A DNA stretch of 35,324 nucleotides from a virus: IMG/VR virus record IMGVR_UViG_3300037540_000288, positions 1-35,324 of that record; one strand, written 5' to 3'. Under the pieces are notes generated by a model, which searched no databases, was not told the DNA's origin, and worked only from the letters and a program-made list of their open reading frames with translations. Shown here in pieces: positions 7,169 through 35,324 of this stretch; within the stretch, counting starts at the first letter, position 1, and each line of letters starts with the position of its first letter. The position numbers and the translations under genes are program-made.

Positions 7169-10100
7169 TAGAAGTTTTCTCCTGTGATCTTTATACCTCT
7201 AACAATTCCACTTACCCCGACCGCTGTTAATGCTCTTGCTCTTGCGGATGGAGCTATAGATCCTTGAGCTTTCCATTTACCCGCTGTGCCAGATGGCTGG
7301 ATATAATTTCCAATACTGACAGCAGTTGAACAATCGTACTCAGAAATCGAACCATAAATCACTATTTCATCATTTTGCGAACCACCCTCAAAAACTGGAA
7401 GTAATGCCTCAATGTTATTATCCACTGTATTCAGTATAACACTATTAGCGTTTCCTGAATCGACTATAACGACCTCTCCAGCTGTTACCGCCGTTACTGA
7501 TCTATGTGTTAGTCTAACCATGCCTTCAGCTAACCATTTTGAGCCGTCAAAGCGAAACTCTTTTGATACTGTACTGTTCCAACATTTATCAGACTCTGCC
7601 ATTCCTGTTAATGCCCACATTTGAGCCGTTGTTTTCGACCCGTGATATTGGACGCCGTTTATTGAACCACTTATTAAAACATTCCCAACAACCTCTAGTT
7701 TCTCACTAGGGCTTGTCTTATTTATCCCGACATTGCCACCTGTAAAATAAGAGTCTCCGCCTGAATCTAATTTATTTTTTAATGCGCCTGTAGAGTCATT
7801 CATGTATAACTGCGAATTAGACGAGCCATCATTCCATAAGCTAAATATATCATTTCCTAAAGTGTTTTTTACTCTGAATGTTTTTTCGCCGGGACTTGAG
7901 CTTTCTATTGTCTGCATATTTGTAAAAGGATTTGCTTGATCTAAATAAGCAATATTACTTGAATCTGTTAAGTTGCTACTTGCAATCGTGGTCGTATCAA
8001 ATATACTTGTTGCGTTATTCCAAATTGCAAATTGTCCATCATTTGGAGTATCTTCTCGACCTGCTAGGGCAACAGTATTACCAATGTCTCCAACTCTTGC
8101 CGTTCCTGCGTTGTTGATAACAATTTGACCATCATTAACACCGTCGTATAAATGAGCCTGTATTCCTGTATAGACTCCAGCTCCAAGCCCTGCAACTGCA
8201 TCATATCTAGTTTCAAGTAAATTGTCTGAAACTTGAACCGTTTGAGATTGAACTAGTGTTTCCACGTCAAGAGTACCGGTTACTGTTAGATTTGCTAAAA
8301 CTGGTGAGTCAGTGAATACAAGGTCAGTTTCTCCAGCGTTTACCTCAGGTATTTTATGTGCATTTCCTGTAAATGTTGGATCCGTATCCGTTAATTGTAG
8401 ATAGGTAGTAGCACCCGCAGAACCGCCACCGCCAAACAAAATATTTGTCTCTGTTTTGTCTACAATACTATAGATTGATTTAACTCCACTATTATCTACA
8501 ATATTAACTGCTGAACTGAATATTAAAACCCCTTTTGTATCTGCTGGTTGTTGGTATACTGCGTAGCGATTCAGGTCTTTTTCTGCATCTGCTGGGGCTG
8601 TTTTTGAATATGTTCCAGTTGGAAAATTAGCAAGTAATTGAGGTTTTTCTGTTCCTTTATTTGCAATAATAGAGACAACAACGGTATAACTTTTGTTTGT
8701 TAATGAACCCCCGCTTGCATCCGTCGTAATGGTCGCAAGATCTAAAACTGGTACATTTTGAGTTGTAAAGTCATTTGTGACAGAAATGCTGTCTCCAATT
8801 GTGCCATCAACCGTTAAATCTGGTATTGTTTCTTCAACGGTAATAGTGAAGTCAGGATCACTATAGTTCGTGCTGGCTACCCTGTAAATCCCGTCGTTTC
8901 CTGTGGAGTTGTTCATTTGTATCCATCTTGAATCGGGAAAGATGCTTGTTAAGTCTCCATCGTCTGATATCACAAAAGTTGACGCTGTTACGGCATCAAT
9001 TGAATACTGAGCCACATCTAGAATTTGGATGTTTTGGTCGTGTGCTTGCATTGCCACGCCTTCGGACGTTGACGGCCATAACTCGTTAGATGGGCCAATT
9101 GCCACAGTTGTTTTACAACCTGACTTATATGTTGCTGGCAGCTTCTCTCTTAATGCTTGCCCTGAGTGGACCACATGACCATTATTTCCCGTTTGCTTTA
9201 AATGATTGTTTATATTTTGATTCCTTTTTGCTCCCTCTTGTTTTGTCCTTGCAGCGTCGTAAACTGAACATTGAGCAATTAAACAATAAGTCTCATTTTC
9301 CGGAAAACTAGTGTTTGAGATAGTTAAGGCTTTTGTTGTTTCTGAAATATAAATATATTGCTCTTGTGCTACTGTGGGTGATCCCTGATTCAGTTCTATT
9401 GTTAATGGTGCGGTTGTTGTGTCTAGGGTGTAGAAATTGTTAAAAATACAAGTCAAGTTTAAGGTTGGATCAGAATTCTTTAAAGTCCCTGTAATTGTTG
9501 AACCGTCCGAGGTAATCAGAAAATCGAAGCTCTCTCTAATTGTGCCTATCCAAGCGTCGGCAAAGGTATCATAAATTGAGCTTGTCATACTGATTAATAT
9601 CTTGCCGTTTGGAGCGGGTAGGTTGTTAAATGAACCGCCAACACTCATTGCCCATTTTGGAAATTCTGGCTTTGTATCTGTGGTTAAACCGTCTTCACCG
9701 AACCACAATTGAGCCCCTGCTGAAACATGACTCAAATCACCACCTACAACACTTCCAAACCTAAAGGCAAGCCCTAATTCTCCGTTAGGGATTAAGCAAC
9801 ATGAAATTGATAACGTCCCTTGTAGCCTTTCCCAGTATCGTGAGTCAGTTAAGTCTGGCGTGGGAACTAAAAACCCCCCACCAACATCAAAAGCCCCTTT
9901 TAAGTGCAATCCTCTAAAAGGCTGAATATCGACACCTGTGTCATTATAGTATAGAATATAAATATCTTGCCCTACTTTTATAGTACCTAAACCATTTGAG
10001 TATTCAATAGCGTATATGTCACCGTTCCACGCCAAATCACCCGCTTCTGTTAGTGTCATTGGTGATGTTGTGTTAAACTTGACACCTGAGGCACTAATAT

Positions 10101-15828: not shown

Positions 15829-16020
15829 ATGAAAGAATTTTGCTATGCTGTTAGTGCTACCCTAATAAAAGATACGAAAAATAGAATAAATATTATGACA
15901 GATTTAAGAAGAATCAAGGCTAATAGCAAAGAAGAAGCAATTGGAGTATACATTATGGAGGTCTCTGAACAATTCAAAGAGCATCAAATTTGGGTTAGGC
16001 CCGTTGCTATGCAAGTTTAA
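15829..16020 (+). CDS. Hypothetical small protein, last gene of the rightward block
   Basis: 63 residues (MKEFCYAVSATLIKDTKNRI). It contains LRRIKANSKEEAIGVYIMEV, resembling small phage proteins with an alternating strand and Ala-Ile-Gly helix. It follows AAAAGGATTGAAAA. Directly followed by the intrinsic terminator. Function unknown. Confidence 0.55.
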   Translation: MKEFCYAVSATLIKDTKNRINIMTDLRRIKANSKEEAIGVYIMEVSEQFKEHQIWVRPVAMQV

Positions 16021-16027
16021 TAATCCC

Positions 16028-16053
16028 AAGGGCTTAACGGCCCTTTATTTTTT
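16028..16053 (+). terminator. Intrinsic terminator of the rightward block
   Basis: AAGGGC (16028-16033), loop TTAACG, GCCCTT (16040-16045), then TATTTTTT. It stops rightward transcription before the convergent terminase gene, whose stop codon (16045-16047) overlaps the end of the stem. Confidence 0.85.
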
Positions 16054-17463
16054 ACCAAATTTTAACATATAACTTATAACTCCATACCGCAGCGAGTCCC
16101 AAAAATCAATTCCCATGTTACTCTTATCCTCTTCAGGCTTACTCCTAAATCCGTCCAGTTTTGCATCATAAATTCTTGAGTATTTCGGAATCTGCATTTT
16201 TAATGGGTCTTGCTTTGTCTTCTGTTTAATCAAACTTCTAGTTATATATCTATCACTTGCACATATGAATATCTTAAACTCTTTTAATTTGTTAATTCCG
16301 TCTAAAATCAATGTCTTTTGGGCGTTTTCTGCCTTATAGCCTTGATTCTTTATAGCTTGAACCATTAACCCGTTTTGGGAATCCCAAAATTGGTAAACTG
16401 TTTTTTTAACACCCTTCTTTTTCATTTCCTTGTAGATGTCTTGCGGGTCTGACAAGCTATTGTCAAAAATAATATCCTTAACGAATACAAGTCTCTTTCT
16501 TAGGTCTATAAAAATATCTAGTAAAACTAATGGATCTCGGCCAACTCCAGAACTGAAATCTCCACCATTTACATTAATCAGATACTTCTTTTTATTGATT
16601 GACTTCTCATAATAAAGTTGCTGGTTATTTGTGAGCTTGTATTTTTTAATATTTGATTCAAGCTTTTTCTTTCTAAACTCTCTATCTGTCATATAAGCGA
16701 ATTGTTTTTCACTAACAAAGAAATAGTTCTTGTTTTCTAAGAAGAATAAACCTTCAGTTCTTAAGGCTATTTCACCAAATCTTAACCGTCTATAATCATG
16801 CTCATCAAAGATTTTAATGGCTTCAAGTTCTGCGTAGTCTTCTTCAGTGGCAAATTCATTGTCATCTATAGTCGTTTTTAAAAATTCAATATTCGGAAAT
16901 TCATCTTGATTCTGAAACATTTTAACTGTGTAGTGGTCTGTCTCGGTGGGTGGGTTCATTACTAATACAAGCTTTTTCTTGAACTCCATAGACCCGCATA
17001 AAGACTTTTTAACCCCACTTTGCCCCGCTCTGATTGTGTTTACTAAAGCTGTGTAATGTGTTCTAAGTGATTGCTCGGCCTCTTCATAAATATATAAATC
17101 ATATTCAGAATCTTTTAGCGTTGCTTCTTTTCCAAGCATTCCAGTATATTCTATAGTTGAACCATTTATAAACTTGATTTTAGTTTCATTGTTCACTTTT
17201 ACAAGTGCAGAAATACCTAGTCTGTTTATTGATTCTTTATAGTTTGCGAATGTTGTTTTTCTCATTCCTTCAGTAAAGCATCTTAATAATAGAACCCTGA
17301 GCTTAGGAAAAAGAACACAAGAAAGCATTGCAAAATCTACAACAAACCATGTTTTACCTGATTTTCTTGAACCCCATAAAAAAAAATGCTTCGTGAAATT
17401 GAAGCATAATTTTTTATAGACCTCTTGAGTTTTTAGCTCATAGTTTCCTAAATCAACATTCAT
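16045..17463 (-). CDS. terL: Terminase large subunit (TerL)
   Basis: 472 residues. ATPase: Walker A GSRKSGKT (31-38, Lys37), Walker B-like YDLYIYEEAE (121-130) with adjacent acidic residues, and coupling segment LVMNPPT (167-173). Nuclease: Asp302 in GGDFSSG, Asp361 in FWDSQ and Asp456 in DFWDSLRYG fit the RNase H-like metal-binding triad. The layout is of the PBSX/Terminase_3 type. It is separated from TerS by four other genes instead of the usual adjacency. Positions 25-40 are encoded by a 49-bp sequence that also occurs, identical, in the gene at 18319-18906. Confidence 0.92.
   Translation of the reverse strand: MNVDLGNYELKTQEVYKKLCFNFTKHFFLWGSRKSGKTWFVVDFAMLSCVLFPKLRVLLLRCFTEGMRKTTFANYKESINRLGISALVKVNNETKIKFINGSTIEYTGMLGKEATLKDSEYDLYIYEEAEQSLRTHYTALVNTIRAGQSGVKKSLCGSMEFKKKLVLVMNPPTETDHYTVKMFQNQDEFPNIEFLKTTIDDNEFATEEDYAELEAIKIFDEHDYRRLRFGEIALRTEGLFFLENKNYFFVSEKQFAYMTDREFRKKKLESNIKKYKLTNNQQLYYEKSINKKKYLINVNGGDFSSGVGRDPLVLLDIFIDLRKRLVFVKDIIFDNSLSDPQDIYKEMKKKGVKKTVYQFWDSQNGLMVQAIKNQGYKAENAQKTLILDGINKLKEFKIFICASDRYITRSLIKQKTKQDPLKMQIPKYSRIYDAKLDGFRSKPEEDKSNMGIDFWDSLRYGVISYMLKFGKK
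17344..17392 (-). repeat. 49-bp perfect direct repeat, copy in TerL (Walker A)
   Basis: Identical to 18475-18523. It encodes KHFFLWGSRKSGKTWF in TerL. The flanking bases differ at both ends. Confidence 0.97.
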
Positions 17464-17466
17464 TTA

Positions 17467-17811
17467 CTATTCTGTCTCTTCAGTAAAGGACACTTTGACT
17501 GTCTCTTCGCCAACTTCTAAAGAACCTGTAACATTACCTCTTTTATGGCTTATTTCAATCTTGCTATCTGTGGTTACAACGACTATCTCCTTCGCAAAAT
17601 TAACACCCTCTACTATCTTGGGAATATCAACCTCACCATGTCTTAAAAAATCTGACTCCAAAACCGAATGAATACTTTTTGTTGATGCTCTCACAACGTC
17701 GTTACTAACTCCCTCAATATAGCTCTGATAAGCCGGTATTGCTATGCTTGCTAGAATTGCAACTATTATAGCTACAACCAGCACTTCAATTAATGTAAAT
17801 CCTTTTTTCAT
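17467..17811 (-). CDS. Phage-encoded type IV prepilin / pseudopilin-like protein
   Basis: 114 residues. A four-residue leader MKKG is followed by FTLIEVLVVAIIVAILASIA, with Phe+1, Glu+5, a 20-residue hydrophobic helix, Pro22 and Tyr24 of the mature chain, all canonical for type IVa pilins and pseudopilins cleaved by prepilin peptidase after Gly. The C-terminal domain is beta-rich and lacks cysteines, so it is a minimal pilin. ATG 17811 overlaps the upstream stop (ATGA) and has AAGGAG eight bases before it, so it is coupled to the phage packaging operon. It follows directly into TerL. A role in using or altering host pili, superinfection exclusion or secretion is inference. Confidence 0.88.
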   Translation of the reverse strand: MKKGFTLIEVLVVAIIVAILASIAIPAYQSYIEGVSNDVVRASTKSIHSVLESDFLRHGEVDIPKIVEGVNFAKEIVVVTTDSKIEISHKRGNVTGSLEVGEETVKVSFTEETE

Positions 17812-18011
17812 AAACCATTCTCCTTTTTATTTTTATTATTAAATATAACCCCTATTTCACACTCTCCAGTTTTTAGGATTTTTCCTATTACTAAAAATCT
17901 ATTTTCTAATTCATCATTTCTATCTTTTAACTTCTTGAGCTCCTTTTCTAATGACCGGTTTTTCTGCATTTCTTCAAGATGTCTACCCCTCCAATCTATT
18001 TCGTAATTCAT
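17808..18011 (-). CDS. Small coiled-coil protein, unknown
   Basis: 67 residues. Highly charged heptad-rich N-terminus, RSLEKELKKLKDRNDELENR, then FLVIGKILKTGECEIGVI. Ends in the overlap with the prepilin start. It could be a partner or chaperone for the accessory cassette, but no family is recognised. Confidence 0.55.
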   Translation of the reverse strand: MNYEIDWRGRHLEEMQKNRSLEKELKKLKDRNDELENRFLVIGKILKTGECEIGVIFNNKNKKENGL

Positions 18012-18032
18012 AAATCATTCTCCTGTTTGTTT

Positions 18033-18305
18033 TTATTTCTCAAAGCCTTCTGCAAAATCTCTTTCATCTCTTATAAGAACACAAGACCCCTCATGCAAAC
18101 ACGCTTTGCAATCGTTTTCCTTAAGACACGTTGCTATGTCTAGAGGTTGTTTGTTTTTAAGTCCTTTTATTGCAACTTTCAATAGCTCATTTGTTTTAAT
18201 AACTTGCTGTTCTGCCTTTAACAACCTCTCTTCAATGCTCTCTATTTTTTCTAACAATATTAGTATTGATGGTTTTGGTGAGTCATCTAATTCTGAATAG
18301 CTCAT
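18033..18305 (-). CDS. Coiled-coil protein with C-terminal cysteine motif
   Basis: 90 residues from ATG 18305, chosen because GGAGGGAAAACG precedes it; the open frame extends to 18356. Coiled coil around residues 15-50 (LEKIESIEERLLKAEQQVIK), then a C-terminal Cys group CLKENDCKACLHEGSC. The same kind of group (CSKENNCDDCHHKRIC) ends the neighbouring 195-residue protein, so the two seem to share a small metal-binding-type module. Confidence 0.57.
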   Translation of the reverse strand: MSYSELDDSPKPSILILLEKIESIEERLLKAEQQVIKTNELLKVAIKGLKNKQPLDIATCLKENDCKACLHEGSCVLIRDERDFAEGFEK

Positions 18306-18318
18306 CGTTTTCCCTCCT

Positions 18319-18906
18319 CTATTTATAGCAAATTCTTTTATGGTGGCAGTCATCACAGTTATTTTCTTTTGAGCAATGCTCTTCTTGAGACCTCAATCTT
18401 TCTAAACCCTCATGCATTCTTGTATTCGCTTTATTTCTTGTCTTTGTTTTTATTTTCTCGAAAATATCTGCTTTAAACCATGTTTTACCTGATTTTCTTG
18501 AACCCCATAAAAAAAAATGCTTCTCATTCTCTTCTTTTAGTTTTTTATTCTCTTTTTCAAGTTCAATGTTTTTCATGCTTAGCTTCAGCCACGATTCCGG
18601 CCAATCTATTTTATCCTCTTCTTTTATTTGATTCGACTTTCTGAGAAATAAAATATAAATACCATCATCTGTTTTTACTTGTAAAGCAAAAATGTCCCCG
18701 CTATCATCCCACACGCCCATGTATTCATAAGTTTGTACCTCAAGCCCTTTTTTATTACTTCCTGCAATTTCAGTGTGTATTTTTAAAACTTTGTCTTCTA
18801 ATGTCCATTTGTTATCTGTTAGGGTTTTAACCCCCATTTTTTGTTTGTTCATTATATTTAAAAACGATTCGCCTATAAACAACTGCTCTCTCTCTTCAGT
18901 ATTCAT
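18319..18906 (-). CDS. Hypothetical protein carrying a copy of the TerL Walker A segment
   Basis: 195 residues: an alpha/beta N-terminal region (IHTEIAGSNKKGLEVQTYEY; FALQVKTDDGIYILFLRK), a coiled coil (LEKENKKLKEENEK), then KHFFLWGSRKSGKTWF at 129-144 with no following ATPase fold, and a C-terminal Cys group CSKENNCDDCHHKRIC. The copied segment is encoded by the 49-bp repeat shared with TerL. Since no Walker B or other motor motif follows, this is not an ATPase. It looks like a coiled-coil/Cys protein of the cassette family into which the piece of terL was inserted in frame. Overlaps the TerS stop by four bases. Confidence 0.62.
   Translation of the reverse strand: MNTEEREQLFIGESFLNIMNKQKMGVKTLTDNKWTLEDKVLKIHTEIAGSNKKGLEVQTYEYMGVWDDSGDIFALQVKTDDGIYILFLRKSNQIKEEDKIDWPESWLKLSMKNIELEKENKKLKEENEKHFFLWGSRKSGKTWFKADIFEKIKTKTRNKANTRMHEGLERLRSQEEHCSKENNCDDCHHKRICYK
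18475..18523 (-). repeat. 49-bp perfect direct repeat, copy in the 195-residue gene
   Basis: Identical to 17344-17392, 1131 bp away and in the same reading phase. Recombination between the copies would delete 1131 bp, including the prepilin gene, and fuse the first 128 residues of the 195-residue protein to TerL from Lys25. Confidence 0.97.
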
Positions 18907-19499
18907 TTTTTCACCACTTTCTTTTCTTTTTCTTTAACAATTTGGCTCAATGTTTTACCATTGAAATTTACGTTTATATCTTTATTGCTGTCATTCTCTT
19001 TTAACTTGTAGTAGATATCTGCAAGTAGCCTTCTATTAGTTGTCTTACATTCAAGCTCTATAATTGTATTCCCGAACTTATCGAAGCTAATCTTCTTAAT
19101 ATTCTTAGTATCAACTTTGCTTAGATCTTTTAAAACTGGTACTATAGTTGTTTTAGTTGTATACTCGTTTGTTTCTACATCAAATATCTTTTTTTCTTCT
19201 TCAATAAAGTTATAATAGTTTTTATAATCATCCTCTAAAACCCTCCAAATATCCAATAACAATCCATCTTGGTTTTTCTGAATCCTTCTGTCTCTAGCTT
19301 TCCTTAATTGATCTAATCTAGTCTGTATTTTAGGTAATTTTAGAAGTTTATACGCTCTTTGTTCTGCTCCATTCTCACTATATTTTGATGCAATCGCCGC
19401 TTTTGTCCCGTTTTCAACCGCAACCATATTTTTACAAAAAAGTTCCATTTTTGGAGTTAAATTTTCCTTATTTTGCTCTTTTTTGTTTTTTTTTGCCAT
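18903..19499 (-). CDS. terS: Terminase small subunit (TerS)
   Basis: 198 residues of the Terminase_2 / XtmA type. The N-terminal signature LTPKMELFCKNMVAVENGTK then AAIASKYSENGAEQRAYKLL and PKIQTRLDQLR forms the DNA-binding helical region. The middle and C-terminus (residues 85-198) include DIWRVLEDDYKNYYNF and a lysine-rich tail. It recognises the packaging site and hands DNA to TerL. Four accessory genes intervene before TerL. Confidence 0.88.
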   Translation of the reverse strand: MAKKNKKEQNKENLTPKMELFCKNMVAVENGTKAAIASKYSENGAEQRAYKLLKLPKIQTRLDQLRKARDRRIQKNQDGLLLDIWRVLEDDYKNYYNFIEEEKKIFDVETNEYTTKTTIVPVLKDLSKVDTKNIKKISFDKFGNTIIELECKTTNRRLLADIYYKLKENDSNKDINVNFNGKTLSQIVKEKEKKVVKK

Positions 19500-19544
19500 T
19501 TTTTAACTCTTTTTAAATAGTAATCACTTAAATATAGTGACTTT

Positions 19545-20015
19545 TTAATCATTTTTCAATGTTTTTAATCTATCTCCTTTATAATATGCTTCATTATAGC
19601 TTTCACCATGTCTTTTCCTGATCTTCTCTATATTGTACTCTAACACGTCCTTAACGGTTAAATTCACTTCTGCTAACACCTTCAAACACCAGTTAAAAAC
19701 ATAGCTATGATGTTGATGGTCAATGTAATGCTGAATCACATTTTTCAAATCGCACATAGTTGAATCGATGTTAAATCTTGACAGGTTCTTCATAGTAATT
19801 ATTTCATAGTGAGCCAGATAATAAAAAACATCCCCAAACTCGGATAAATAATTTGGAATTGATTCATGATATTTTGCATCTGTGTACTCGGATAAGACTT
19901 CCCCAAGTTCACATATAATTTTTGAATCAATATAATTATATGCTTTCTGAAAGTTGTTGATATGAAACGTTTTGTTAGCCTCTACTTTATACCATGCCCA
20001 TAGTTGTTTATTCAT
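19545..20015 (-). CDS. MazG-type NTP pyrophosphohydrolase
   Basis: 156 residues from ATG 20015, chosen over ATG 20030 because GGAAGGA lies just before it. The all-alpha NTP-PPase signature is complete: CELGE (Glu36, Glu39) and SEFGD (Glu59, Asp62) give ExxE-N19-ExxD, the metal-binding pattern. The C-terminal NIEKIRKRHGESYNEAYY helix is typical of the family. Members hydrolyse (d)NTPs and, in phages, are proposed to alter nucleotide or alarmone pools. The start overlaps the stop of the upstream mini membrane gene. Confidence 0.82.
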   Translation of the reverse strand: MNKQLWAWYKVEANKTFHINNFQKAYNYIDSKIICELGEVLSEYTDAKYHESIPNYLSEFGDVFYYLAHYEIITMKNLSRFNIDSTMCDLKNVIQHYIDHQHHSYVFNWCLKVLAEVNLTVKDVLEYNIEKIRKRHGESYNEAYYKGDRLKTLKND

Positions 20016-20139
20016 TTTTTTTCCTTCCATAATTTACAGCCGTCCCCCACAAAAACAACACCACCAGTAATTTCCAATCATAAAAATATAATGTTGCTGT
20101 CACCGCAACCACACCTAACATTATGGCGAGTTTAAACAT
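20008..20139 (-). CDS. 43-residue two-segment membrane protein
   Basis: MFKLAIMLGVVAVTATLYFY, then DWKLLVVLFLWGTAVNYGRK and KNE. Two short hydrophobic segments separated by DWK predict a hairpin membrane protein. It overlaps both neighbours (ATGTTTAA with the zinc-ribbon gene, ATGAATAA with the MazG gene), so it is translationally coupled at both ends. A holin-like role is possible but unproven. Confidence 0.65.
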   Translation of the reverse strand: MFKLAIMLGVVAVTATLYFYDWKLLVVLFLWGTAVNYGRKKNE

Positions 20140-20461
20140 CTAAAACCCCTTTCCTTGTTTCTTCATTTATCAAGCTCCACTCTTCCTTGGTTGGTTGTCT
20201 TCTTATATTGCAGCAACTACACTCCATATCTGTATATTTAGCAGGAAACGTGTGTGTTTTCTTCCATTCGTGAACACCTCCGTTTAAACATGGTGCTTTA
20301 CCAGCCTCGTATGAAAAGCTAATTTCTGTGGTATACGTAAATGTTTTTTCGCAAGAATCGCAATCTTGTTGATATGTTTCATTTTCTCCATAACCATAAC
20401 CATCATCATGATCGACTTCTTGCCACTTCAAGCAATATGGGCATTCGACATCTTTATTCAT
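20132..20461 (-). CDS. Zinc-ribbon protein
   Basis: 109 residues. CPYC (7-10) with CDSC (34-37) forms a four-Cys zinc ribbon. A second metal-binding group is suggested by Cys58, His64 and CSCC (81-84), which resembles a family of small phage zinc proteins. The region between has DHDDGYGYGENETY. Starts inside the stop of the previous gene (ATGA). Likely a nucleic-acid or protein-binding adaptor. Confidence 0.68.
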   Translation of the reverse strand: MNKDVECPYCLKWQEVDHDDGYGYGENETYQQDCDSCEKTFTYTTEISFSYEAGKAPCLNGGVHEWKKTHTFPAKYTDMECSCCNIRRQPTKEEWSLINEETRKGVLDV

Positions 20462-20724
20462 TTATTAAACTCCTTTATTTTTCTAAAAGGCTGATAAAAG
20501 CCCGCTTGTTTTATTATATTCAAAATTAAATCATCTGCACTAGAAAACAACTCGCTTTCTTTAAAAGGTCTATTTATTTTATCAAAAACATAAGAAACCT
20601 TAAACTCTTCTTTTACTAGAGAAGAGCACTCTATTTTAACTATTTTTACAACCGCACATTGAGCAATGTTCTTGTGTATAAAATAGAGAAGGGCGCTCAC
20701 TTTAAACTTTGTTTTAAATTCCAT
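20458..20724 (-). CDS. Hypothetical small protein
   Basis: 88 residues, basic N-terminus (MEFKTKFKVSALLYFIHKNI) and a C-terminal helix (FSSADDLILNIIKQAGFYQP). It overlaps the zinc-ribbon gene by ATGA. Not recognised. Confidence 0.52.
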   Translation of the reverse strand: MEFKTKFKVSALLYFIHKNIAQCAVVKIVKIECSSLVKEEFKVSYVFDKINRPFKESELFSSADDLILNIIKQAGFYQPFRKIKEFNK

Positions 20725-20874
20725 CTAAAACCCCCAGTATTTTAGAGTTTCTGTGATCGCTTCAGGGTAATATCCAAAATAACCCGCTAGAGCTAAAACA
20801 ACGCTCATAACTAACTTTTCTAATTTACCTTTTTTAACACTCTTACCTGTCAATTTCTGCAATTCTTTTTTCAT
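20725..20874 (-). CDS. 49-residue single-pass membrane protein
   Basis: MKKELQKLTGKSVKKGKLEK followed by LVMSVVLALAGYFGYYPEAI and TETLKYWGF. A strongly basic N-terminus and one hydrophobic segment (about 21-40) predict an N-in/C-out protein. ATG 20874 overlaps the previous stop (ATGA), and the stop abuts the next ATG. Function unknown; small membrane peptides of this type include holins and exclusion proteins. Confidence 0.6.
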   Translation of the reverse strand: MKKELQKLTGKSVKKGKLEKLVMSVVLALAGYFGYYPEAITETLKYWGF

Positions 20875-21143
20875 AAATAAACCCCTTCGTTATAGTCAAT
20901 TTTTTTCTTTTTCTTTTTCTCTTCAAATAAATCTTCTATTGTGTTGCTCTCTTTTTTATTGTAAATAACCCGCCCATCTACTGCTAAATATTCTAAATCC
21001 TTTATTGTTACTATGCCTCTTTCATCGGAAGAAGTATAATAACAATATAATGTACCTCCTGTTTGCTGCACGGACTCGCAAGTATAAATACTCCAAGCCA
21101 CTTCGTTGTGCTTGTTAATGCTTTTTGCCTCAACCTTAATCAT
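20871..21143 (-). CDS. Hypothetical small protein at the head of the terminase operon
   Basis: 90 residues from ATG 21143, chosen because AAAGAGGAAAATTATT precedes it. An in-frame ATG at 21170 lies directly after the U-tract of the leader terminator and has no ribosome binding site. Strand-rich core (WSIYTCESVQQTGGTLYCYY) and a C-terminal acidic-basic tail (LFEEKKKKKKIDYNEG). Not recognised. Confidence 0.55.
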   Translation of the reverse strand: MIKVEAKSINKHNEVAWSIYTCESVQQTGGTLYCYYTSSDERGIVTIKDLEYLAVDGRVIYNKKESNTIEDLFEEKKKKKKIDYNEGVYL

Positions 21144-21170
21144 AATAATTTTCCTCTTTATTTTAGCCAT

Positions 21171-21259
21171 AAAAAAAGACCCTCCGTGGTGGGAAAGGGC
21201 CTATTTTGGGGTGAATATGAGCACTTGAAAAGACCCACCACAACCCTCTTCAAATGCTC
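21171..21259 (-). ncRNA. Structured leader RNA: pseudoknot/antiterminator versus intrinsic terminator
   Basis: Read on the minus strand from 21259: stem 1 pairs GAGCATTTGAA (21259-21249) with TTCAAGTGCTC (21229-21219), 11 pairs with one G-U, enclosing a 19-base loop. That loop contains GTGGTGGG (21241-21234), exactly complementary to CCCACCAC (21193-21186) downstream, giving an H-type pseudoknot. The same downstream segment lies inside a second hairpin, GGCCCT...AGGGTC (about 21202-21179), followed by TTTTTTT, an intrinsic terminator. The two structures compete, as in an attenuator. A free RNA of about 85-90 nt is an alternative. Confidence 0.55.
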
Positions 21260-21265
21260 TCTATT

Positions 21266-21294
21266 AGTTTAATGCTAATTCTTACTTAATGCAA
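21266..21294 (-). promoter_or_regulatory. Candidate promoter for the leader RNA and terminase operon
   Basis: Minus-strand TTGCAT (21294-21289), 17-base spacer, TAAACT (21271-21266). GCATTAA occurs twice, 18 bases apart, across the -35 and spacer. Transcription would begin about at the first base of stem 1 of the leader RNA. It lies about 10 bases past the stop of the 21304-21645 gene. Confidence 0.45.
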
Positions 21295-21303
21295 GTCTTA
21301 TTC

Positions 21304-21645
21304 TTACTTTTTTTCAACATCTCTTAACCTGTCTTCATGGTCACTAACAGCACTTTTTAAAAACGCCAATGATTCGCTAATGCTTCCTAGATTTTTAGAA
21401 ATATCTTGTTTTATTATTAGATCATCTCTTAGTTTGTCATCAATCTTAGATAGGGTTATCTCTTGCCTTGTTGCCTTCCTTTCTTGATTCAACTGTCTTA
21501 CTTCATAAATATCCTTAGAAACCTTCTTTTCAATTGCTCCGTCCACTTTATCGTCGTACCGGCTATAATATATAAAAAATACGCTTAGCACGGTACACAA
21601 TAGGGGAATCCAAGTATTAATGTTTTTTTCTGTTTTTTGAGTCAT
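21304..21645 (-). CDS. Membrane-anchored coiled-coil protein, possible holin/spanin-like
   Basis: 113 residues. Short basic N-terminus, one hydrophobic segment about 11-27 (TWIPLLCTVLSVFFIYY), then about 80 residues of charged coiled coil (DIYEVRQLNQERKATRQEIT) ending SDHEDRLRDVEKK. This build recalls phage proteins such as XhlA-type hemolysins and i-spanins, although XhlA has its membrane segment at the other end. It is one of the few lysis candidates here. Its SD and start codon are buried in a hairpin (21639-21685). Confidence 0.5.
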   Translation of the reverse strand: MTQKTEKNINTWIPLLCTVLSVFFIYYSRYDDKVDGAIEKKVSKDIYEVRQLNQERKATRQEITLSKIDDKLRDDLIIKQDISKNLGSISESLAFLKSAVSDHEDRLRDVEKK

Positions 21646-21685
21646 TTAAAAGCCTTTTATTTTGAAATATAAGGCTTCGTGACTC
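21639..21685 (-). promoter_or_regulatory. Hairpin covering the SD and start codon of the 21304-21645 gene
   Basis: On the minus strand GAGTCA and AAGCCTT pair with AAGGCTT and TGACTC (arms 21685-21680 / 21644-21639 and 21677-21671 / 21656-21650), leaving small internal loops. The AAGG that should serve as SD and two bases of the AUG are in the 3' arms, so translation would be blocked until the stem is melted. On the other strand the stem is followed by TTTTTT and would look like a terminator, but no gene uses it. Confidence 0.45.
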
Positions 21686-21699
21686 TTTTTTCAATTTAT

Positions 21700-22020
21700 T
21701 TATAATTTAACTTTCTTAAGAAAACCCCACAGCAAAGAAGTTTGTTCTTTGTTTATAGAGTTCCAGTCGAAATTGTTTAAATCTATTTTTGTATGACTTT
21801 TAAGCTCGTTGTTTTTATCTAAGTTACCATTATCAAGTTCATAATCAAGAGCATCTACCACTATATGAATGCCTCTCATTGAAAAATCATATATAATAGC
21901 TTTTTTTAAGTGCTTGACCATTATTATTTTATAAACATTATTAACCCCTTTTTTTTCTGTCCTGCTGATGTTATTCTCTGTATAAGAAACACGCTTTAGT
22001 TCTATAAAATATTCTTCCAT
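21700..22020 (-). CDS. Hypothetical protein
   Basis: 106 residues. Contains FIELKRVSYTENNISRTEKK at the N-terminus, KHLKKAIIYDFSMRGIHIVV in the middle and an acidic, Asn-rich C-terminus (NGNLDKNNELKSHTKIDLNN). ATG 22020 follows GGAGGTGAAAAG, an excellent SD. Not recognised. Confidence 0.6.
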   Translation of the reverse strand: MEEYFIELKRVSYTENNISRTEKKGVNNVYKIIMVKHLKKAIIYDFSMRGIHIVVDALDYELDNGNLDKNNELKSHTKIDLNNFDWNSINKEQTSLLWGFLKKVKL

Positions 22021-22039
22021 CTTTTCACCTCCATTTATT

Positions 22040-22495
22040 TTAGTTTTTAACCTTTTTTGGCTTATAATTGTTCAAATCTTGCCTTTCTTGTATAAGATTA
22101 GAGTAGTCATTTAGAGTCATGCTTATTTTATTACATACCTCTATCGTGGTATTGGTAGTAATGCTATTACAAAACCGGAAAGAGCTTGTGTAACCTATAT
22201 TGTTATATTCAAACATCAATTTAATTATATAAGGCTGCTCTATTATGTATCTAAACTCAATATTGCATTTAGATAATAAATGTTTAAGGTAATCAAGTTT
22301 AACACATATCAATTTATAAACAATGCTATTATCTGATATATTTCTAAACCCATAAGGCTTAGAGTTGTAAAACCCCATTTTATTAAGATCTAGTTCTAAT
22401 TTAATATCATTGTGAATATTACAATAATCTTGTATTTCGCTTGCCGTTAAAACCATTTGCCTAGCAATGCTTTTAATTTTTCCTCTTAACCCCAC
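22040..22495 (-). CDS. Hypothetical protein of the replication region
   Basis: 151 residues, basic, with IARQMVLTASEIQDYCNIHN and several Tyr/Ile-rich strands (FRYIIEQPYIIKLMFEYNN). ATG 22495 follows AGGTGAAAAGGTGG. It directly follows the DnaC-like gene, so a replication-related accessory role is possible. No family recognised. Confidence 0.57.
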   Translation of the reverse strand: MGLRGKIKSIARQMVLTASEIQDYCNIHNDIKLELDLNKMGFYNSKPYGFRNISDNSIVYKLICVKLDYLKHLLSKCNIEFRYIIEQPYIIKLMFEYNNIGYTSSFRFCNSITTNTTIEVCNKISMTLNDYSNLIQERQDLNNYKPKKVKN

Positions 22496-22509
22496 CTTTT
22501 CACCTCAAT

Positions 22510-23277
22510 TTATTTAATTATTTTAGTATCGTATTTTGCTCTTAAACTTTTTCCTTCTAACTCTTTAACATAATTAACATTGCTTAGCCTTTCCCACATT
22601 CGACCACCGACTAATTTTTTTATTGAATTTGGGGACTTATTACAAGTAACAATTACAGCCCTCATATATTCATACCTCTTGTTTATTATATTATACAGCA
22701 ATTGCTTTTCCCAGTCTTCTAAATCCACGCAAAAGAAGTCATCTATTAATAATAAATCAGCTTCGATGCATTTTTTAACATAAGCTAAAGCCACGGGAAT
22801 TACCCGCCCGGATTCACTTATTTTATTCCTTATATTTGTTTTAAATTCTGAAAAATCCACTACAAGTGGTATTTTTGATTCTGTTTTGTCTTTATTTGCC
22901 GTTACAATCATAAACTCTTTTGCTAACGCATAAACAAAATGTGTCTTTCCAATTCCATAACCACCACTTAAAATCAATCCTCGACCGTTAAACGTGGCTT
23001 TCTGGAGCAATCTAAAATATTCTGATAGTGTGGTATCCTTTAGAGAGAAATCGCTTAATTTGGCGTATTTATACCGTTTCGGCGTGTTTAACCTTGAGAA
23101 GATTAAGTTATAATTAGTTTCTACTAAAGTTTTTTGTATTTTCTTTGGTTTTGCTTTAGCATTTGCTAAACAAGATTCTAATGCTCCTGATAAGCCTCTC
23201 TTAACCTTGCTTTGCCCTGCTTTGTTTTTCTTTCTCTTACTGTCACTAATTTGTTTTAATAGCTTTAAATCATCCAT
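22510..23277 (-). CDS. DnaC/IstB-like helicase loader (AAA+ ATPase)
   Basis: 255 residues. Basic N-terminal tail (SKRKKNKAGQSKVKRGLS) then a AAA+ core: Walker A GGYGIGKT (105-112), Walker B DLLLIDDF (174-181), sensor I VIVTCN (208-213), and GGRMWERL (224-231) with candidate arginine finger. It would load the host replicative helicase onto the phage origin, as DnaC or phage loaders do. No DnaB-type helicase or polymerase is encoded, so it would recruit the host enzymes. Lies downstream of the initiator. Confidence 0.85.
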   Translation of the reverse strand: MDDLKLLKQISDSKRKKNKAGQSKVKRGLSGALESCLANAKAKPKKIQKTLVETNYNLIFSRLNTPKRYKYAKLSDFSLKDTTLSEYFRLLQKATFNGRGLILSGGYGIGKTHFVYALAKEFMIVTANKDKTESKIPLVVDFSEFKTNIRNKISESGRVIPVALAYVKKCIEADLLLIDDFFCVDLEDWEKQLLYNIINKRYEYMRAVIVTCNKSPNSIKKLVGGRMWERLSNVNYVKELEGKSLRAKYDTKIIK

Positions 23278-23299
23278 TCTTTAGCCTTAATTCTCTTTT

Positions 23300-24049
23300 T
23301 TAGTTATAATCCGATTCTAATATCATGCTTTTCTTAGGTTTGTAGTAATTAGCTTTGTAGTTACCTTCACTTTTCTTTTTCCATTTTCTTAAGGCTAAAT
23401 TGAAGTTTTTATACTTGTACCCTTTTAGCTCTATTCCTTCATCTAACTCCTTAATCATCTCTTTTAGATCTTCAGTTCCAAATTCAGATTCTAATTTTTC
23501 ATATTCAGATTTTGTTAATTTTACTTTTTCATACTCACCAAAAAGGAAAAATTTTTCTTTTTTACTTTTTTTCTTTTTATCTGTCTCTAACTCTATCTCT
23601 TTCTCTAACTCTATCTCTGTGTTACATTTTGTTACAACACTGTTACATTGTAACACTTTCTCGTTACATTGTAACGTTCCCGTGCCTGACTTATTTCTGA
23701 ATTTCCGTACACGTATTGCACTTTCTGTCTCTTTTCCAATATTTTTAATTGTCTCATGAAAAATAAGATCTTTGTTGTTAATTACTTCAGCTAGACCGCA
23801 TTTTTCTAAGAAAAAGAGAGTTGCTTCTATGTGTTCTTTCTTTTCATCAATCTCTAGCTCCAACTCTTCGGCCAACGTCTCCTCTATGCCATCAAATTCT
23901 ATTAAACCTTCTTTTTCTAAAGATAGCAATTGAAGTTTTAAATATATGAGTGTGTATATTTCACCCCCTGCAACCTTGCGTAGTTTTTTCATTCTCTTAT
24001 CCTGAAAAAAATCCTTTTTTAACTTTAACCAGAAATATTTCTTTGACAA
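23300..24049 (-). CDS. Phage replisome organiser / replication initiator
   Basis: 249 residues. The N-terminal domain MSKKYFWLKLKKDFFQDKRM through GGEIYTLIYLKLQLLSLEKE matches the replisome-organiser N-terminal family of low-GC phages. This part is winged helix in character and binds the origin. A linker at 120-140 (LQCNEKVLQCNSVVTKCN) reflects DNA iterons within the gene. The C-terminal part (ELDEGIELKGYKYKNFNLAL, then RKWKKKSEG) is typical of the helicase-loader binding region. It acts with the loader encoded next to it. The gene holds the likely origin. Confidence 0.83.
   Translation of the reverse strand: MSKKYFWLKLKKDFFQDKRMKKLRKVAGGEIYTLIYLKLQLLSLEKEGLIEFDGIEETLAEELELEIDEKKEHIEATLFFLEKCGLAEVINNKDLIFHETIKNIGKETESAIRVRKFRNKSGTGTLQCNEKVLQCNSVVTKCNTEIELEKEIELETDKKKKSKKEKFFLFGEYEKVKLTKSEYEKLESEFGTEDLKEMIKELDEGIELKGYKYKNFNLALRKWKKKSEGNYKANYYKPKKSMILESDYN
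23585..23676. repeat. Probable origin of replication: iterons inside the initiator gene
   Basis: TGTTACATTGTAACA (23641-23655) and CGTTACATTGTAACG (23662-23676) are inverted repeats with the core GTTACATTGTAAC. Further GTTACA units start at 23621 and 23631. The starts 23621, 23631, 23642 and 23663 are spaced about 10, 11 and 21 bases, in phase with the helix. Before them CTCTAACTCTATCTCT is repeated at 23585-23600 and 23603-23618, and a T-rich stretch (23551-23583) could be the unwinding element. An origin inside the initiator gene is common in lambda and lactococcal phages. Confidence 0.7.
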
Positions 24050-24072
24050 ATTAAACCTACTTTCTTAGTGAG

Positions 24073-24390
24073 TTATTTGTAAATATTAAAAGCGTCTATT
24101 TTCTTTAACTCTTCTACTAAACTTCTTACCAAAACTTCTCCTACTTCATCTGAATGTAAGCTTATTTCAACGTTTTTATAGAAGTAAATATTTTTTACAT
24201 AGCTATTTGGTTTAAAAAATCCGACCGTTTCTGGTACCGCTAACTTATCTATGCTTTCAGAAACATCTAGGCCATTTTCAATATTGTAGAGGGTTAATTT
24301 TTTTTCTAGTTCTGAAAGTAAATTACGGCATTCATGATGCTTTTGCAAAATTTCTGACATTTCTTCAATAATCTTAATATTTTTTTCCAT
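24073..24390 (-). CDS. Hypothetical protein
   Basis: 105 residues. Coiled-coil N-terminus (IKIIEEMSEILQKHHECRN; LLSELEKKLTLYNIENGLDV) followed by FFKPNSYVKNIYFYKNVEIS. It is upstream of the initiator gene in the same operon. Not recognised. Confidence 0.55.
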   Translation of the reverse strand: MEKNIKIIEEMSEILQKHHECRNLLSELEKKLTLYNIENGLDVSESIDKLAVPETVGFFKPNSYVKNIYFYKNVEISLHSDEVGEVLVRSLVEELKKIDAFNIYK

Positions 24391-24393
24391 CTT

Positions 24394-24603
24394 TTAACCT
24401 TTCTTATCTACTTTAACAATATAATGACCTAAACACACGCAGTCTTTCGAGGGTTTTTTGGTCCAATTACCCTCTTTATCTTTGGCCCCTTTTTTTGCTT
24501 TGTGAATCTGGTTTTTAAAGCTGGATAAAGACAGTTTTCTTTCTTCACACCAAGCCCGTAAATTTTTCACAGGCTGGTGGTCTATTAAGTATTTGATTTT
24601 CAT
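24394..24603 (-). CDS. Small basic protein, possible DNA binder
   Basis: 69 residues, very basic (LRAWCEERKLSLSSFKNQIH; KAKKGAKDKEGNWTKKPS). The segment CEERKLSLSSFKNQIHKAKK resembles a helix-turn-helix of small phage regulators. Overlaps the previous gene by ATGA. No family certain. Confidence 0.52.
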   Translation of the reverse strand: MKIKYLIDHQPVKNLRAWCEERKLSLSSFKNQIHKAKKGAKDKEGNWTKKPSKDCVCLGHYIVKVDKKG

Positions 24604-24890
24604 TTTGATCCTTTTATTTCAAGTTTTTCTGTTAACTTTTTAAACTCTTTTCTCGCTTTTTCTATTGTACTAAATTTTTTAACTAATGTAAAATATTTAG
24701 GAAACCCCTTTCCTCCGTTATTACAGCGAGTCCCGAAAGAAATCTTTCCTCCGTAATTCATTTCTTCTAATTCCCAACTGCCTGACGTGCTATAAGTACC
24801 ACCATCTTCAAACCCGCTCTTCTCTAGCATCTCTATGTTTTTCTTTCTTTCTATATCTCTTGCTGTAAAACCATCACAGAATATTGTCAT
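24600..24890 (-). CDS. Hypothetical protein
   Basis: 96 residues from ATG 24890. The frame extends to 24899, but GGTGGGACTT fits as the SD of this ATG and is the same sequence that precedes the gene at 13000. Contains FEDGGTYSTSGSWELEEMNY and a C-terminal basic helix (EKARKEFKKLTEKLEIKGSK). Not recognised. Confidence 0.55.
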   Translation of the reverse strand: MTIFCDGFTARDIERKKNIEMLEKSGFEDGGTYSTSGSWELEEMNYGGKISFGTRCNNGGKGFPKYFTLVKKFSTIEKARKEFKKLTEKLEIKGSK

Positions 24891-24913
24891 AAGTCCCACC
24901 GATTTTAGTTTAA

Positions 24914-25198
24914 TTATAATTGCTTTAAGTAATCTTCAAAAGTTGTTTTAGTGTTTGTTAAATATTTGATTTCTTCTTTATCTGTCTCTTCTAATAGTTC
25001 GTTTTCTATGTAATTTATTTTAGCTGTAAATTTCTTTACAGCTTGCTCTTTAGTTAATAGTTCTACGTTCCCATTGTTGATACTTGTAAGACCGTCTTTA
25101 TAGTCTTTTAGGAATAAACCCGCAAAACCTTCTTGTTTAGTTAATTCAGGATTAATAAGAACTGTGTTGTTTATGATAGCTACTTTATAATTTAACAT
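24914..25198 (-). CDS. Hypothetical protein, first gene of a leftward promoter
   Basis: 94 residues. Acidic and helical C-terminus (EQAVKKFTAKINYIENELLE, then ETDKEEIKYL). GGAG precedes ATG 25198. It is the first gene after the strong promoter at 25240-25268, as for an early gene. Not recognised. Confidence 0.57.
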   Translation of the reverse strand: MLNYKVAIINNTVLINPELTKQEGFAGLFLKDYKDGLTSINNGNVELLTKEQAVKKFTAKINYIENELLEETDKEEIKYLTNTKTTFEDYLKQL

Positions 25199-25239
25199 TC
25201 TCGACTCCGATTTGGGTTAGTATTATTGCTTACAATTAC

Positions 25240-25268
25240 AAGTTAACACAAAAAGTACGCCTTGTCAA
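25240..25268 (-). promoter_or_regulatory. Leftward promoter of the replication/terminase block
   Basis: Minus-strand TTGACA (25268-25263), 17-base spacer and TAACTT (25245-25240), followed by GTAATTGTAA, identical to the sequence after the -10 at 12950. Two direct repeats AAAAAGTACGC (25250-25260 and 25272-25282) flank the -35, 22 bases apart. Confidence 0.7.
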
Positions 25269-25282
25269 GCGAAAAAGTACGC
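25250..25282. repeat. Two 11-bp direct repeats around the leftward -35
   Basis: AAAAAGTACGC at 25250-25260 and 25272-25282. A start-to-start distance of 22 places them on about the same face of the helix, overlapping the spacer and the base upstream of the -35. Candidate operators for a repressor. Confidence 0.55.
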
Positions 25283-25293
25283 TTTTATTTGTT

Positions 25294-25563
25294 TTATTTG
25301 TTTTTACCTAGCAATTTCTTAATGTCTTCTATACTCCAGAAATATTTATTTTCTAGTACTGCATGAAGATTCTCTGTTACTTGTGTCATCGAAAACCCAA
25401 AAAAACCAAAGTTTCGAGATACTTCTTTTTTACTCTTAACTTCCTTTTTTAAGCCTTCTTTATTGAAGAGAAAGCCATTTATATATTCTACTATGTCGCC
25501 TTTTCTAAAGCCTAAAATATCGCTCTTTGCCTCCCATAAAGCCCCATTTTTAAAGAAGTCCAT
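25294..25563 (-). CDS. Hypothetical protein
   Basis: 89 residues, starting MDFFKNGALWEAKSDILGFR. Mixed strands and a C-terminal basic helix (FWSIEDIKKLLGKNK). ATG 25563 follows GGAGGAAAA and lies in the 3' end of the upstream gene. Ends before the promoter at 25240-25268. Not recognised. Confidence 0.52.
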   Translation of the reverse strand: MDFFKNGALWEAKSDILGFRKGDIVEYINGFLFNKEGLKKEVKSKKEVSRNFGFFGFSMTQVTENLHAVLENKYFWSIEDIKKLLGKNK

Positions 25564-25858
25564 TTTTCCTCCAATTTTTCTTTTTTAATATTTCTAAATA
25601 TTGGTGAATGTCGAATTTAATAAAGCTATGTTTTGCATCTATAAGCCATCTTTTATACAAAGAATACGCTTCTATAGATCGTAGTGGTATTTCTAAGAAA
25701 TCTGATACATCTTCTAACAGTAGACAGCATTTAGTGATAGATTTACCTTTTACTTCTTTTTTACAGTAATAAGCATACTGCTTTAATCTTTTAGTAGTGT
25801 TTGCGTTGTTCAAAATGTATTTTAATGTAAATACAGTCACTTCTCTCTCATTATACAT
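25550..25858 (-). CDS. Hypothetical protein, first gene leftward from the divergent promoter region
   Basis: 102 residues, basic (RLKQYAYYCKKEVKGKSITK; LKKKNWRKNGLL). A candidate helix-turn-helix-like stretch is DFLEIPLRSIEAYSLYKRWL. It is the gene closest to the promoter/operator region 25898-26001, so it could be an early regulator, but this is not established. ATG 25858 is preceded by GAGGG. Confidence 0.5.
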   Translation of the reverse strand: MYNEREVTVFTLKYILNNANTTKRLKQYAYYCKKEVKGKSITKCCLLLEDVSDFLEIPLRSIEAYSLYKRWLIDAKHSFIKFDIHQYLEILKKKNWRKNGLL

Positions 25859-25897
25859 AATGCCCTCAATTTTAGTTAATTTTTATCAGTTAATCTT

Positions 25898-25926
25898 AAG
25901 TTACAGTTAAAACAAAGTTAAGTCAA
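25898..25926 (-). promoter_or_regulatory. Leftward promoter of the divergent region
   Basis: Minus-strand TTGACT (25926-25921), 17-base spacer and TAACTT (25903-25898), upstream of the gene starting at 25858. The divergent partner is the promoter at 25973-26001. Confidence 0.62.
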
Positions 25927-25945
25927 GTATTTTTTAATAATCTAC

Positions 25946-25973
25946 TACTAGTACTTTATTTGAATAAAGTACT
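25946..25973. promoter_or_regulatory. Operator-like inverted repeat next to the rightward promoter
   Basis: AGTACTTTATT and AATAAAGTACT (25950-25960 and 25963-25973) are perfect 11-base inverted arms with a TG centre, ending at the first base of the -35. TACTAGTA (25946-25953) overlaps the left arm. It should allow a dimeric regulator to control both divergent promoters. Confidence 0.68.
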
Positions 25974-26001
25974 TGACAAGGGAAAGTTTTAGTATTAGAT
26001 T
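25973..26001 (+). promoter_or_regulatory. Rightward promoter of the 26.0-30.7 kb block
   Basis: TTGACA (25973-25978), 17-base spacer containing GTTTTAG and TAGATT (25996-26001). The first gene starts at 26047. Confidence 0.7.
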
Positions 26002-34972: not shown

Positions 34973-35324
34973 TATGTGTTCTCCGTAATTATTCCGCCAG
35001 AACCGACTAAATTATTATTACTATAATTGACAGCTGAAGCAACTTCAGAACCATCAATCACAACATTAACCTGAATAGCTTCTCTAGTTGTATTGTTAGT
35101 AGTGTTTGTGGTATTCTGAACAGTGGAGGTTGAACCACCATTTTCAAAAGGAATCATATCAGCCCCTCCAAAATTAACGGCATCAAGCTTATTAACACCT
35201 ATTTCTGCTGTTCTCTTTTTAGAGAAAAAATATTCGCCACCCTCAAAGCTTTTAAAAACAGATGGTTCATCTCTTGTTGTGAATTTAGTGTCATTTCCTG
35301 AAGCATGGGAACCGCCCGATGTTA
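34972..35324 (-). CDS. Tail tape measure protein, C-terminal part (same gene as 1-1887)
   Basis: In-frame continuation of the gene that starts at 1887. Bases 35293-35324 duplicate bases 1-32, so the unique C-terminal part is 35292-34972 (106 residues plus stop). It is rich in Gly, Ser, Thr and Asn and contains two similar segments, EFEEGGLTSGGSHASGND and SFEGGEYFFSKK, before a Thr/Asn-rich tail. An in-frame ATG at 35157 lies inside this gene and need not be a separate start. The stop at 34972 overlaps the ATG of the next tail gene. Confidence 0.88.
   Translation of the reverse strand, partial: TSGGSHASGNDTKFTTRDEPSVFKSFEGGEYFFSKKRTAEIGVNKLDAVNFGGADMIPFENGGSTSTVQNTTNTTNNTTREAIQVNVVIDGSEVASAVNYSNNNLVGSGGIITENT
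35293..35324. repeat. Terminal redundancy, right copy (circular join)
   Basis: Exact copy of bases 1-32. Removing it gives a 35,292-bp circle. Confidence 0.9.

Follow-up and report, generated by a model that had tools for sequence, protein, structure and literature searches.

A putative phage leader element in which a 5' hairpin loop is complementary to the loop of an intrinsic terminator

The pR'-tR' region of phage lambda consists of a promoter, a short leader and an intrinsic terminator, with late genes expressed via read-through and a terminated small RNA (6S) released as a by-product. Phage antisense RNAs of the c4 and P4 CI type are small RNAs produced from a leader that itself contains the complementary segments. 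The loops of the guanidine-II riboswitch are short, conserved and ligand-binding. Control of the lambda late genes is attributed to Q (PMC7171158), and Q has been described together with its qut site (PMC11658703). The guanidine-II (mini-ykkC) riboswitch is made of two hairpins and a linker, and its loops are proposed to kiss (PMC7544219, PMC9094411). HK022 put, Bacillus subtilis EAR and Tn916 canT are structured antitermination leader RNAs found in mobile elements, which act on later terminators (PMC11658703).

The element considered here lies in a virus record of 35,324 bases with a G+C content of 33%, hereafter the window, by which we mean the whole stretch of DNA analyzed. The replisome organizer, a DnaC-like helicase loader, TerS, TerL, the portal and head proteins were recognized on the minus strand of the window, and an exonuclease gene on its plus strand. 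The element is located on the minus strand within a 133-nt intergenic gap between ORF 21645-21304 and ORF 21170-20871; replication genes are found upstream on the same strand. An earlier sequence-only reading had placed it upstream of the terminase operon. It is not immediately adjacent to the terminase genes: downstream come, in order, four small ORFs, TerS (start 19499), TerL (start 17463), the portal and the head genes. A Q or ArpU/RinA-type antiterminator was not recognized among the scanned phage proteins, most small ORFs being without any match, and a family search with the 99-aa ORF directly behind the terminator returned none. Elsewhere in the record, a 32-base identical repeat (1-32 and 35293-35324) is expected for a circular or circularly permuted phage contig. 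A 61-nt direct repeat with 92% identity (17332-17392 vs 18463-18523) places a copy of the TerL start region (HFFLWGSRKSGKTWF, Walker-A-like) inside ORF 18319-18906; the proteins diverge beyond it, and the repeat looks like a partial duplication or a recombination scar. The features of the element, with the basis of each, are as follows.

21266-21294, minus strand: promoter-like TTGCAT-N17-TAAACT (-35-like 21294-21289, -10-like 21271-21266); read from sequence
21219-21259, minus strand: hairpin 1, 15-bp stem, 11-nt loop GUUGUGGUGGG; RNAfold minimum-energy fold
21234-21241, minus strand: loop-1 kissing sequence GUGGUGGG; exact complement of the terminator loop
21203-21218, minus strand: linker of 16 nt, AUAUUCACCCCAAAAU, mostly unpaired; RNAfold
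21177-21202, minus strand: hairpin 2, the intrinsic terminator, 9-bp stem AGGCCCUUU / GGAGGGUCU, 8-nt loop; terminator scan, RNAfold -10.7 kcal/mol
21186-21193, minus strand: loop-2 kissing sequence CCCACCAC, the entire 8-nt terminator loop; loop-complementarity scan, RNAfold
21171-21177, minus strand: U tract, seven T, with an ATG at 21170 directly after; sequence
20871-21170, minus strand: 99-aa ORF beginning right after the U tract; ORF list, sequence

The promoter-like site announced by the sequence-only reading is present, though its score is weak: it has 8 of 12 consensus matches, under the scan threshold of 9 of 12, and 158 window positions score equal or better. The promoter is the weakest part of the element. 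The RNA start predicted from it (about 21260-21258) is flush with the base of hairpin 1, which reads GAGCAUUUGAAGAGG, then the loop GUU-GUGGUGGG, then UCUUUUCAAGUGCUC. The stem and matching loop described earlier are therefore found, with 15 pairs in the minimum-energy fold and not the 11 first counted, and the stability of this hairpin ranks third among the 43-nt folds of the whole phage window. The segment matching the loop does lie within an intrinsic terminator hairpin followed by seven U, as had been claimed. This terminator, whose stem closes with two weak U-G pairs, ranks top of the 13 terminator-like sites in the 16000-26000 interval of the window (3.2 expected), and the folded region has a z score of -2.8. 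A near-repeat is also seen between the top of hairpin 1 (GGUGGGUCUUUU, 21239-21228, minus strand) and the end of the terminator (GGAGGGUCUUUU, 21185-21174, minus strand); it is a possible alternative partner for the terminator 5' arm, or the trace of a duplication.

The complementarity between the two loops is exact over 8 nt, GUGGUGGG in loop 1 pairing with CCCACCAC, in agreement with the match first noticed, and no other perfect 8-nt partner for either kissing loop exists in the window. When the window was scanned for a hairpin followed by a terminator with loops complementary over at least 5 nt, this place was the only one returned. In dinucleotide shuffles of the window, an 8-nt match was obtained in 0 of 400 cases and a 7-nt match in 2 of 400, figures to be read cautiously because the test was picked after the feature was seen. 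Shuffled loci totaling 23.2 Mb yielded 29 matches of at least 7 nt and 5 of at least 8 nt, but no match of 7 or more kissing nt whose two stems reached 10 and 7 pairs; terminators are about twice as many in the real loci as in the shuffles.

The same anatomy, in an unrelated sequence, was found at 9466-9562 of the locus L005 (IMGVR_UViG_3300035134_000016). Here the order is a promoter (TTGCGT-N17-TATAAT) better than that of the window element, with the predicted start again flush with the hairpin, then the hairpin, a short linker, the terminator, a Shine-Dalgarno outside the hairpin and the ATG of a replication initiator, the genes behind the terminator being this initiator and a helicase loader. 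The hairpin has 16 bp and a 13-nt loop (CUACAGGACAGAUACGGG, loop AGUUGAGCGACGC, CCCGCAUCUGCCUUGUAG) and the terminator 12 bp, an 8-nt loop and U8 (GCCCUUGUAUGU, loop AGUCGCUC, ACAUACAGGGGC-U8). Kissing would involve GAGCGAC and GUCGCUC, 7 nt within both loops or 8 with one stem base, and GUUG occurs at the same place in the first loops of both elements. The distance from U tract to ATG is 12 nt in L005 and 0 nt in the window element. Scored against a covariance model of the window element, L005 reaches 8.1 bits (E 4.6), which is not above noise, and the element is absent from L114, which shares 57% identity with L005 in the DnaC/helicase loader. Although L005 is a single case found after a scan of several loci, its likeness to the window element hints at an RNA architecture that recurs; a pair of cases is too few to define a family. 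The difference between them would represent full covariation, should they be homologous or convergent forms of one device, because their sequences are otherwise unrelated.

The phage proved to be an orphan in the searched collections: no relatives were retrieved from IMG/VR with TerL, with the exonuclease or with the ORF that follows the element, nor from GTDB contigs with TerL, and only distant relatives of the replisome organizer were found in IMG/VR. A BLASTN search with the element in phages and plasmids returned nothing useful, and a second match inside the window (18221-18246) was rejected as chance similarity in a coding frame. Since no close relative was found, there is no covariation within one lineage. 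The pattern GTGGTGGG...CCCACCAC...T5 gave six matches in all of IMG/VR, none of the six with the fold of the element, and a covariance model built from the single element gave no other match above noise. The nearest phages to that of the window, G004 (related TerL) and G005 (related replisome organizer), are both devoid of the element. Besides L005, no look-alike was seen when the descriptor was applied to the replisome-organizer relatives and to loci added later, in total about 3.3 Mb of DNA from phages and prophages with duplicates included. No further member was obtained from PF09681 prophages belonging to the classes of one Erysipelotrichales and one Lachnospiraceae genome or from Butyrivibrio, Enterococcus, Streptococcus and Campylobacter phages, and a TerL search in 786 genomes of those classes found none. 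The kissing candidates L010, L021, L022, L164 and L174 were dropped, having weak hairpins or complementary segments that pair in one long stem. As a separate observation, in Butyrivibrio phage Bo-Finn (L058), at 16700-18200 and 19912-20001, small genes are immediately preceded by several terminator-promoter units that have a repeated TGTTGCAA-type motif in common, and a predicted promoter-terminator pair lies directly before the replisome organizer; kissing loops are absent.

How the two loops might act together can be read in several ways. According to the sequence-only reading the long-range pairing would break the terminator. In such antitermination by pairing, loop 1 would capture CCCACCAC and prevent the terminator from forming, and termination would occur when hairpin 1 is blocked. 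On paper, the isolated loop duplex (-14.4 kcal/mol) is indeed stronger than the terminator hairpin (-10.7 kcal/mol), the two closing U-G pairs are weak, and, judging from the sequence, AGGCCC of the terminator 5' arm is a potential partner of GGGUCU at the top of hairpin 1. However, the 8 complementary nt make up precisely the terminator loop and no part of its stem; an intact terminator can therefore engage in a kissing complex, and both pairings can coexist. Under the loop contact the terminator stem stays formed, with the possible exception of its two closing U-G pairs, which can open and thereby relieve strain. Also against displacement, hairpin 1 persists at every step of step-wise (pseudoknot-free) folding, the terminator being added as soon as its 3' arm is available. 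In L005 the terminator stem (-18.5 kcal/mol) by far outweighs the kissing duplex (-10.8 kcal/mol), so that kissing could not displace it. A competing antiterminator is possible on paper and is not the simplest reading; we consider antitermination by pairing improbable. What stands of the mechanism first proposed is the attenuator-like leader, which together with its other form, a small terminated RNA, is consistent with the anatomy found, while mutual exclusion of pairing and terminator is not supported. In a still less probable scheme, a translational switch, the kissing fold would hide GGAGGG in the terminator 3' arm, which would be the Shine-Dalgarno of the 99-aa ORF; this motif, entirely base-paired within the hairpin, is located 9 nt ahead of the first ATG (21170), but just downstream the frame offers a second ATG (21143) that has a Shine-Dalgarno of its own (AAGAGGAA), and in L005 the Shine-Dalgarno is not part of the hairpin.

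Alternatively, an ordinary intrinsic terminator may close the replication operon beside an unrelated strong hairpin, the loop complementarity being coincidental or functionless. We regard this as unlikely while granting it appreciable weight: conservation is absent from the nearest phages found, the promoter is weak, and large scans yield some such match, as did the 23 Mb of shuffles with their five of at least 8 nt. Coincidence sits poorly, however, with the absence of any 8-nt match in the 400 window shuffles, with a G+C-rich 8-mer pair placed exactly within two loops of a 33% G+C genome, and with the repetition of the anatomy in L005. The promoter-like site, the start predicted flush with hairpin 1 and the terminator, a layout shared by L005 with a better promoter, would also suit an independent small phage RNA of about 89 nt, stabilized by kissing and acting in trans on a host or phage RNA or protein, for which the terminator would merely be the end. 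A constitutive terminator would however silence the genes right behind it, and no trans target is evident inside the phage since no further perfect 8-nt complement of either loop occurs in the window, which makes such an RNA distinctly unlikely. Least probable of all, with hardly any chance in our estimate, is that the loops join separate RNA molecules by intermolecular kissing for the packaging motor, as in the phi29 packaging RNA; complementary loops in one RNA near terminase genes recall that case, yet the hairpins are 16 nt apart and can pair in cis, an Rfam match is absent, and the L005 element precedes replication and not packaging genes.

We tentatively favor, as plausible and short of probable, a leader/terminator checkpoint between the replication genes and the packaging and structural genes. 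In the window element, where the U tract abuts the ATG, and in L005, where the two are close together, no room is left for a promoter; the downstream genes (small ORFs, TerS, TerL, portal in the window; replication initiator and helicase loader in L005) therefore need read-through if the terminator works, and genes reached only by read-through favor a regulated or leaky terminator over a free-standing small RNA. In this checkpoint, RNA polymerase would start at the weak promoter of the element, if the site has promoter activity, or arrive from the replication operon, and the 5' hairpin would form first. Once the terminator hairpin folds, its loop may dock in vivo on the loop of hairpin 1 through an 8-bp kissing helix, and termination would yield a compact RNA of about 89 nt ending at the U tract. 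Expression of the genes behind the terminator would then occur by read-through only, the terminator being either leaky or overcome at the right time by a phage or host antitermination factor, as by lambda Q at pR'-tR'. The kissing contact would most likely stabilize or clamp the terminator fold and protect the terminated RNA, and loop 1, when occupied, would be a possible point of regulation.

A broader proposal, which we regard as doubtful, is that the element belongs to a fast-evolving new class of phage leader RNAs in which a 5' hairpin loop clamps the terminator loop and kissing sets the efficiency of termination, located where unrelated phages switch to replication or packaging genes. A kissing-controlled terminator of this kind, if real, would mean a protein-free contribution to the timing of the passage from replication to packaging, since the strength of the terminator would depend on loop-loop contact with the RNA transcribed immediately ahead of it. 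It would also provide a simple and testable model of how tertiary contacts involve a terminator loop, and it would supply a descriptor, namely a hairpin loop complementary to a terminator loop, for phage searches at scale.

Compared with the systems described so far, we class the element as a phage terminator leader outside the named families. Rfam 15, including the c4 antisense RNA and phi29 pRNA families, gave no match in the window at gathering score, the best sub-threshold match by E-value being Thr_leader with 19.1 bits vs 55. Complementary segments in one phage leader are shared with the c4 and P4 CI-type RNAs; unlike these, the element has no Rfam match, and its perfect target occurs just once in the phage genome. 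In contrast to the guanidine-II riboswitch, its loops are of 11 and 8 nt and form a predicted 8-bp kissing helix in a phage context without guanidine genes, and the guanidine-II (mini-ykkC) covariance model had no match in the window at gathering score or among the low-score matches. Like put, EAR and canT, it would be a structured leader in a mobile element tied to terminator read-through, whereas those RNAs act on distant terminators and here the second hairpin is the terminator itself, and no sequence or family match was found. In layout the element resembles lambda pR'-tR', where a terminator likewise follows shortly after the promoter, here a promoter-like site, with TerS, TerL and the portal gene farther along the same strand. 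It differs from pR'-tR' by the weak score of its promoter-like site, by the lack of a recognized Q-like gene among the scanned phage proteins, and by a long leader hairpin whose loop can kiss the terminator loop. We read it as a putative regulated terminator/leader at the replication-to-packaging junction, with a layout analogous to that of lambda pR'-tR'.
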